From the NCBI GenBank assembly GCA_031292015.1, contig JARLHY010000033.1, positions 1 to 13,070 of the forward strand: 13,070 bases of DNA, given 5' to 3'. The DNA comes from Negativicutes bacterium. Lineage in GTDB: Bacteria; Bacillota_C; Negativicutes; Sporomusales_B; JARLHX01. Below, piece after piece: positions 11,770-13,070 of this stretch. The position numbers and the translations under genes are program-made. The notes below the pieces were generated by a model that had not been told where the DNA came from, ran no database searches, and saw only the letters and a list, made by a program, of their open reading frames with translations. Numbering within the stretch: the stretch's first letter is position 1; each line of letters begins with the position of its first letter.

Positions 11770-13017
11770 CTATTTTTCGATATAGCGGCTGAAGTTGCCG
11801 ATCCGCAGGTCCGGGAACTTCCGGCGCAGGGTTTCGATGAAAAAACGGACGCCGAGGGGCGGCTGGGCCGGAGGCGCCACCTGCCAGACGATATCCGGGT
11901 CGATGTTGAGGTTGCGCAGCTGGATCATGTCGATGCCGGTGGCCTGGATAAATTCCAGCCAGGCGTCCAGTTCGGCCGGCTGATCGTTGAGGCCGGGCAG
12001 CAGCAGCATATTCAGCGAGACATAGACGCCCCGGGTCTTGGCGTAGGCGATGGACCGCCGCACGTCATCCAGGGAGTAGCTGGCGCGGTAGTAGGCCTGA
12101 AATAACGCGGGCCGGGCGCTGATCATGCTGACCCGCATGGTGTCGAGGCCGGCGTCGGTTATCTGTCTGATGCCGGCGGTGAAGCCGGCGTTGGTGTTGA
12201 TGTTGATGACGCCCCGGCGGCATGAGGCGCGGATCTTGCCGATGGCGGAGGCGATCACGTCGGCTTCCAGGGACGGCTCGCCTTCACAGCCCTGGCCGAA
12301 ACTGACGATAGGCTCCGGGGCGCCGGCGAGATGGTAGAGACCGACGGCGGCCACTTCCTCCGGGGTGGGAACAAAGCCGATTCTGCTCTGGGGGGCCGGA
12401 CAGCACTCGGCCGGCTGAAGGGAGATGCAGCCGAGGCAGTCGGCGTTGCAGGCCGGAGAGACGGGAATTCCCGCCTCCCAGCGGTGATAGAAAAGGTTCT
12501 GGGCGGTACAGCAATGCCACTCGCGCGAGCAGCGGGCCAGGTGATCCACCAGGCGGTTGCCGGGCAGGTCGGCCTGCACTTTGGCGATTTTGCCGGCTAG
12601 CGCCGCGGTATTGTAGCGGCGGGGCTGCCATTTGGCGTTATCATCGCTTTTAAGCGCCGCCGCGTAGATCTTTTCGTTAACCATAGCCACCGCCGTGTAG
12701 CCATAAAGAGGCAGCAGTCCCGCCGCAGGCTGCTTGAGGTACGCCGGCAGATGCGTGCGGGTGTAGCCCACAGGCAGGACCGCCGCCACAGCGAGCAGGC
12801 TGGAAGCGATGGGCGCTATGGTCTGACCTTGAGCCGCCAGGGCGCTGCAGTCAGGCAAAAACATCAGATCGGCGCCGTCCGGCAGCAAAATCATATCATC
12901 CAGGCCGAGCGGCCGGTCCTCGCCGCCATCCCGCCCCACCGCCGCGTAGCCCGGCGCGTCGAAGATCTCGCCGGCGGCAGTAGCGTAAAGCGCGGTTGGC
13001 AAATTCATCATCCTCAT
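11770..13017 (-). CDS. Radical SAM protein of uncharacterised family with long N-terminal domain and extra cysteine clusters
   Basis: This 415-residue protein has a radical SAM core (around 183-400). It contains an iron-sulfur motif CNADCLGC (C190, C194, C197; CX3CX2C) and a GGEP-like SAM-contacting segment VSFGQGCEGEPSL (238-250), which includes C244. ININTNAGF and VSLNMLLLPGLND correspond to later barrel strands. An N-terminal domain of about 160 residues (with PVGYTRTHLPAY and LPLYGYTAVAMVN) does not resemble a domain I can name. Extra cysteines lie just before the core (C163, C169, C170 in ARCSREWHCCTAQN) and just after the cluster (C205, C206), possibly for a second metal site (inference). 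The ATG overlaps the upstream gene's stop as ATGA, and no good ribosome site is present, so translation is probably coupled. I recognise the fold, but not the reaction. Confidence 0.85.
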   Translation of the reverse strand: MRMMNLPTALYATAAGEIFDAPGYAAVGRDGGEDRPLGLDDMILLPDGADLMFLPDCSALAAQGQTIAPIASSLLAVAAVLPVGYTRTHLPAYLKQPAAGLLPLYGYTAVAMVNEKIYAAALKSDDNAKWQPRRYNTAALAGKIAKVQADLPGNRLVDHLARCSREWHCCTAQNLFYHRWEAGIPVSPACNADCLGCISLQPAECCPAPQSRIGFVPTPEEVAAVGLYHLAGAPEPIVSFGQGCEGEPSLEADVIASAIGKIRASCRRGVININTNAGFTAGIRQITDAGLDTMRVSMISARPALFQAYYRASYSLDDVRRSIAYAKTRGVYVSLNMLLLPGLNDQPAELDAWLEFIQATGIDMIQLRNLNIDPDIVWQVAPPAQPPLGVRFFIETLRRKFPDLRIGNFSRYIEK

Positions 13018-13070
13018 CGGTTAAATTGGCTGCCGGCTTTAGCGGCGCCATCCCGAATGACCGCTTCCAC
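13014..13070 (-). CDS. 3' end of an upstream gene coupled to the radical SAM gene (partial)
   Basis: The minus strand from the right edge reads 18 codons, ending ...DGAAKAGSQFNR followed by TGA at 13014-13016. The TGA overlaps the radical SAM ATG (ATGA). The rest lies outside the window. Too little is visible to name a family. The overlap makes a shared operon very likely. Confidence 0.65.
   Translation of the reverse strand: MEAVIRDGAAKAGSQFNR

Follow-up and report, generated by a model that had tools for sequence, protein, structure and literature searches.

When radical S-adenosylmethionine (SAM) enzymes have additional iron–sulphur clusters, these are usually treated as helpers of the SAM cluster, and in the SPASM/Twitch enzymes the cysteines of the auxiliary clusters lie C-terminally. 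The radical SAM enzymes TYW1, MoaA, LipA, MiaB, and RimO are described as holding a second [4Fe-4S] cluster on three cysteines, and in MoaA and TYW1 this cluster is reported to bind the substrate or a co-substrate; the three cysteines are N-terminal in TYW1 and LipA, and LipA has a conserved C-terminal serine ligand as well (PMC5352715). For NifB of M. acetivorans, the K1 cluster has been assigned to Cys30 (the cysteine of the HPC motif), Cys63, and Cys129, a set with one N-proximal ligand, and the K2 cluster to Cys264, Cys274, and Cys277 on the C-terminal side (PMC7145814). Here we analysed a radical SAM gene in a 13,070-nucleotide stretch from a Negativicutes bacterium (contig JARLHY010000033.1 of assembly GCA_031292015.1, the window). 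Its product belongs to a widespread family in which three additional cysteines, C163, C169, and C244, rather likely hold a second metal site, and one clade of the family has kept these cysteines while losing the SAM motif.

The gene lies on the minus strand at 11770–13017, where the longest frame encodes 415 amino acids. Above its cut-off, only the generic PF04055 Radical_SAM model of Pfam and NCBIfam matched the protein (residues 184–349, 39.6 bits versus a cut-off of 29.5); no NCBIfam model came near its cut-off, the top one being MoaA with 35.1 bits versus 284. The PF04055 match, the CX3CX2C motif (residues 190–197, at 12427–12450), and a partial TIM barrel in the fold model occur together, so the product can be assigned from its sequence to the radical SAM superfamily, and SAM cleavage is predicted. 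The minus-strand frame, the motif with cysteines 190/194/197, the GQGCEGEP segment at residues 241–248, and cysteines 163, 169, 170, 205, 206, and 244, all listed in the preliminary description, were confirmed in the sequence. The description had also proposed coupling to the upstream gene through an ATGA overlap with its stop codon. These letters are present at 13014–13017, but the N-termini of relatives (MPTALYA in P0001, which is 99% identical, P0002, and P0006; MMKLPTALYA in P0003; MKELPTALYA in P0007) fit a start at TTG 13002 (410 amino acids) or ATG 13008–13011. The true start codon thus probably lies past the ATGA, which makes the overlap doubtful, although the two genes are still very close: TTG 13002 is located nine bases after a GAGG and 11 bases beyond the upstream stop. 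The relatives came from a search with the window protein, in which 7873 of the 8000 scored candidates passed E 0.001, many of the low ones possibly being other radical SAM families, and the best 120 of the 7873 were used. Among the matches listed, source annotations, where there were any, read 'radical SAM protein', 'hypothetical protein', or 'pyruvate-formate lyase-activating enzyme', and the genera included Sporomusa, Lucifera, Thermosinus, and Dendrosporobacter, others being labelled Negativicutes bacterium.

Conservation was examined in an alignment of 63 rows, that is, the window protein and 62 relatives (43–85% identity) taken from a pool of 80 loci and 120 proteins. C163, C169, C190, C194, C197, and C244 were each present in 63/63 rows, so the cysteine pattern is not due to chance. 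Further invariant polar residues included N174, Q210, R212, E245, N272, N274, R295, N336, Q366, R368, N369, and D373. The extra cysteines named in the preliminary description behaved differently from one another: C163 (codon at 12529–12531), C169 (codon at 12511–12513), and C244 (within GQGCEGEP at 12274–12297, all on the minus strand) were invariant, while C170 (21/63), C205, and C206 (45/63 each) were not conserved, the C205/C206 pair being, as judged from the alignment, a lineage feature. After C244, no column contained cysteine in more than 11/63 rows. The invariant extra cysteines thus have the spacing C163-X5-C169 before the SAM motif, with C244 75 residues on, after barrel strand 2. In the predicted fold, C163 and C169 are carried by helices (residues 140–177) in front of the barrel, and C244 occupies the GGEP position in the loop that follows strand 2, the place of the active site in radical SAM barrels. 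The preliminary description had regarded the auxiliary site as unusual because of its N-proximal location. C163 and C169 are indeed N-proximal, but C244 is not, and the view that such a location is unusual in itself is not supported, given TYW1, LipA, and NifB.

The helices are preceded by a domain for which novelty and a length of about 160 residues had been proposed. Residues 1–138 (12604–13002, minus strand) were modelled with confidence as an all-beta domain, shorter than proposed; it matched no Pfam or NCBIfam family and no PDB fold among the structure-search matches shown, so the novelty claim stands in this respect (the absence of a family from the fold-search lists was not taken as exclusion). 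The domain was found in 93/198 Bacillota genomes, always, when compared by eye, on the same contig and at the same place as the radical SAM gene; in the sampled Bacillota it occurs only in this family.

These data support the earlier suggestion of a distinct radical SAM family, and we concluded that it is a real, widespread, unnamed, and uncharacterised one. The genome searches covered Bacillota and Chloroflexota, and the protein searches used the best 120 of 7873, 496, and 6969 matches. At E 1e-30, matches were found in 93/199 Bacillota genomes, in 38/60 genomes of the class of L001 (probably Negativicutes), in 25/101 of the class of L058, a Paenibacillus, and in 35/151 Chloroflexota genomes; one match was labelled Methylomirabilota (P0155, among the best 120 of 496). 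Each matching genome had one family match, which in G571 appeared as two partial ones on two contigs. The family is sharply bounded in 12 genomes, where its gene matched at E 1e-176 or better and the runners-up at 1e-11 or weaker. The family thus combines an N-terminal domain lacking a solved match with a single copy per matching genome. Both aerobes (Paenibacillus, Brevibacillus, and Ktedonobacter) and anaerobes are represented among the named members. Single in-frame stops occurred in three otherwise intact members (G262:C11:1497-2714, G326:C37:2836-4029, and G382:C83:4657-5853, the last being L156), which are either sequencing errors or recent losses. In the titles and abstract openings of the open-licence papers listed, neither the family nor SAM-motif loss within it was found described; among the matches listed, those to the letters CEGEP concern migraine drugs and none contains GQGCEGEP.

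An unexpected finding concerning the extra cysteines came from a distant Chloroflexota member, L123, for which 496 relatives were found at E 1e-20. In L123 and the best 120 of these 496, all three cysteines of the SAM motif were absent; five of the eight among these 120 that bear an organism name belonged to Candidatus Limnocylindria. In the class of G087 the gene was present in 27/101 genomes, with one match each: 25 genes were motif-less, one had the motif (G135, L137), and one fragment could not be judged (L163). On a tree of 158 rows, built by a quick method and rooted at the midpoint, all 44 motif-less rows formed a single clade (support 100), the sister of which was the canonical L107 from G135; thus, the SAM-cluster cysteines were lost once on this tree. 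The loss left gene position unchanged, as obg was found downstream in 26/27 loci of the G087 class and a gene for an M23 peptidase with LysM domains (M23-LysM) upstream in 25/27, the misses (L149, L162, and L163) being short stretches. In eight pairs dN/dS was 0.12–0.47; the motif-less proteins are under purifying selection. In the four members tested, scores of the Radical_SAM Pfam model ranged from none (P0122 and P0146) through just under the cut-off (L161) to a pass in L123.

The motif-less set of 144 rows, with a median identity of 65% and a minimum of 40%, was compared residue by residue with 241 canonical rows. At 18 positions the same residue reaches 99% or more in each set, including C163, C169, C244, G246, D345, and D373, and also R87 and P91 of the N-terminal domain. 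Across the whole set, canonical and motif-less, C163, C169, and C244 were cysteine in 361/361 rows. On the other hand, 19 positions near-invariant in canonical members dropped to under 20%, including the cysteines of the SAM motif and R295, N336, and Q366 of the barrel. New residues, H272, H310, D369, and E192, reached 94–98% in the clade; H272 appears, in our reading of a profile alignment, to stand at the place of the NifB K1 ligand Cys129. C182 was gained in 94% of the clade, its early branches lacking it, and is present in 9% of canonical members. Since C163, C169, and C244 were kept while the SAM cysteines were lost, conservation is stronger at the extra site than in the radical SAM motif itself. 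We read the three cysteines as a separate site and not as an accessory of the SAM cluster, and this site may be the part of the protein that matters most. A clade that gave up the ligands of the SAM cluster and kept what would be called the helper site amounts to a natural deletion experiment, and a canonical protein together with its motif-less orthologue at the same gene position offers a natural system for asking what the additional site does on its own. The relatives thus make the gene more interesting than the window alone did, although the reasons first given for its interest, cysteine clusters and coupling, need correction.

Taken together, the sequence comparisons suggest a two-site radical SAM enzyme, and we consider it somewhat probable that C163, C169, and C244 hold the second site, probably a [4Fe-4S] cluster. 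This cluster would have one open iron and would lie at the barrel mouth beside the SAM cluster. In canonical members, SAM would be cleaved at the first cluster and the 5'-deoxyadenosyl radical would attack a substrate presented by the N-terminal domain, while the second cluster could bind or activate the substrate or a co-substrate, by analogy with the reports on MoaA and TYW1 (PMC5352715). Limnocylindria proteins would use the second site without the canonical radical step. Dph2 is an enzyme that cleaves SAM on a non-canonical cluster. A bolder version, which we put forward only tentatively, is that the constant working centre of the family is the three-cysteine open-site Fe-S cluster on a radical SAM barrel; radical SAM chemistry would then be dispensable and would have been dropped once, in Limnocylindria, where the cluster would use the rebuilt residues H272, D369, and E192, or might even cleave SAM itself in a Dph2-like manner.

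The genomic surroundings bear on the partner and substrate of such an enzyme. Of the upstream gene, the window contains the last 18 codons with the stop (13014–13070, minus strand), which read VEAVIRDGAAKAGSQFNR-stop. They resemble the C-termini encoded at position −1 in Negativicutes relatives, such as that of L003 (AVESILKHGFNKAMNGFNK), and TIGR00447 identifies the −1 gene of L002 as pth. From these 18 residues and its position, the upstream gene is probably pth. L002 has the order pth – radical SAM gene – rpmE – DUF1385 – prfA – prmC, and this block recurs in the window, where an insertion of six genes (Fur, ABC ATPase, ABC-3 permease, MarR, MFS, and CMD) precedes rpmE. The following genes, all on the minus strand, are rpmE for ribosomal protein L31 (7115–7306, tblastn 65.6% over 64 amino acids), a frequent downstream neighbour that here lies beyond the six-gene block, and the conserved block consisting of a yqhQ-like DUF1385 gene (6067–6981, PF07136), prfA for release factor 1 (5007–6074, PF03462 and PF00472, tblastn to prfA 65%), prmC (4144–5004, tblastn 44% to a reference named by TIGR03534), and sua5 for threonylcarbamoyl-AMP synthase (3101–4141, PF01300 and PF03481). 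Within the insertion, the Fur-family regulator, the ABC ATPase, and the ABC-3 (metal) permease occupy 9532–11544, in an otherwise conserved block. Farther away, a phage-type tyrosine integrase gene (PF00589) lies near tandem tRNA-Lys and tRNA-Gln genes (2782–2937, minus strand), and this region, 1332–2937, looks like the edge or a remnant of an integrated element.

Neighbours were counted within 1.5 kb on the same strand where at least 600 bases were available on that side, after removal of six duplicate loci; short flanks make some of the counts too low. In Bacillota, rpmE was downstream in 45/76 loci, and rho, the M23-LysM peptidase gene, and pth were upstream in 39/80, 32/80, and 18/80, respectively; Chloroflexota other than the Ktedonobacteria-type loci had rpmE in 8/17, obg in 8/17, and M23-LysM in 4/16. 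None of rpmE, obg, rho, M23-LysM, and pth was found beside Ktedonobacteria-type genes (0/18 or 0/19). At least one of rpmE, obg, or prfA downstream or pth upstream occurred in 61/74 Bacillota, 15/16 other Chloroflexota, and 0/18 Ktedonobacteria-type loci. As the Chloroflexota loci L113 and L115 also have glpX, M23, rpmE, DUF1385, prfA, and prmC near the gene, the gene block is old. An old conserved block argues against the dedicated upstream partner that had been postulated, and the gene upstream is indeed variable, probably pth here and rho, an M23-LysM peptidase gene, or others elsewhere. The M23 peptidase was likewise rejected as an obligatory partner, being absent from the pth loci (0/19), the Ktedonobacteria-type loci (0/19), and the Paenibacillus loci; in one Chloroflexota class (L107, L123, and L137–L163), the radical SAM gene lies very regularly between an M23 peptidase gene and obg, and the single M23 peptidase of this class that was tested, from L107, has LysM domains. 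In the Ktedonobacteria-type group, the radical SAM gene is immediately preceded by a gene for a 100-amino acid protein in L031 (1015–1314) and, by tblastn, in 18 other loci; four of these 19 matches were weak or partial, and two loci are repeat records (L083 of L032 and L087 of L047). This protein matched no Pfam or NCBIfam family at the cut-offs used; it may serve as partner or substrate there.

From the frequent presence of rpmE, obg, prfA, or pth beside the gene, we would guess that the substrate is part of the translation machinery (the large subunit or its factors), the old block being only a weak hint of such a role. Several observations weigh against this link and the two-site reading as a whole. 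The Ktedonobacteria-type members have no translation neighbours, and in Bacillota rho and M23-LysM adjoin the gene just as often, so the apparent link may reflect inherited gene order only. In 198 Bacillota genomes (treated as the same sample as the 199 of the family search), the gene co-occurred with neither rho (p 0.63) nor Spo0A (p 0.13) beyond chance, and sporulation and Rho were rejected as partner processes. A profile comparison with NifB, based on ten NifB-type sequences from 12 loci found with TIGR01290, gave 97% probability over 222 columns and paired C169 with the HPC cysteine and IPVSPxCN with LPVAPxCN, a lead obtained without control radical SAM families, but C169 lies at the very edge of this alignment, which is weak there. 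Finally, the three cysteines could hold zinc instead. A structural zinc bound by C163, C169, C244, and a fourth, non-cysteine ligand, pinning the N-terminal helices to the barrel and leaving the SAM cluster as the only one, is unlikely but deserves consideration, as the survival of these cysteines beyond the SAM motif would be explained if their role were structural, and C182 would complete a four-cysteine site in most of the motif-less clade. Canonical members, however, have no fourth conserved extra cysteine, C182 is missing from the early branches of the clade, and C244 stands where the radical SAM active site lies. RlmN and Cfr use two cysteines as catalytic thiols, and a similar function of the present ones as hydrogen donor, methyl carrier, or persulphide, not as cluster ligands, seems improbable to us, since a thiol tied to SAM chemistry should not outlast the SAM cluster, yet all three do. 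It is just as improbable that the Limnocylindria proteins are decaying pseudoenzymes, whose kept cysteines would say nothing about function: 16 near-invariant canonical positions besides the three SAM cysteines have changed, including the barrel residues mentioned above, and L156 carries an in-frame stop, but the dN/dS values, cysteines that stay invariant at pairwise identities down to 40%, the new residues at 94–98%, and the retained M23 and obg neighbours all speak against decay. That the protein is a divergent NifB, TYW1, LipA, or MoaA carrying out the reaction of that family is highly improbable, for although these types are among the best folds and profiles, the tested family-defining second motifs are absent and MoaA scores 35 bits versus 284.

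The two-site reading can finally be set against the known systems. PFL-AE and other simple activases (3c8f) have, to our knowledge, no such extra cysteine site, and the NCBIfam PFLA model gave the window protein 11 bits versus 232. The SPASM/Twitch enzymes are alike in having cysteines besides the SAM motif, but the present family has no conserved cysteine after C244, and no SPASM Pfam model matched at E<=1. By structure, Foldseek placed lipoyl synthase 4u0p first (E 2.0e-09), and by profile the only solved relatives below E 0.001 were BlsE (7vob/7voc, E 9e-05) and MoaA (2fb2/1tv7, E 2-3e-04), whose sequence matches cover the barrel only and share no second-cluster motif with the family. The TYW1 motif CX12CX12C of the N-terminal part and the MoaA motif CX2CX13C of the C-terminal side (PMC5352715) are both absent here, as only C163-X5-C169 precedes the SAM motif and conserved C-terminal cysteines are lacking; LipA differs in its cysteines, two invariant ones preceding the SAM motif here and the third being C244, and no LipA model was among the NCBIfam matches listed. 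TIGR01290 of NifB was not among the matches of the window protein at E<=1. With respect to K1, C169 aligns with Cys30, but the place of Cys129 (CLSTNG) is taken by ININTNAG with N272 and C205, near Cys63, is present in 45/63 rows, and no conserved cysteine after C244 could correspond to the K2 set. Unlike NifB, the family carries an additional beta domain at the N-terminus as well as the invariant C244, which lies on the loop of the adjacent strand. Like TYW1 and LipA, it carries extra cysteines on the N-terminal side, and like TYW1, MoaA, LipA, MiaB, and RimO, it has three extra conserved cysteines, with room for an open-site second cluster, in a ligand spacing unlike theirs: CX5C before the SAM motif and a cysteine 75 residues on.
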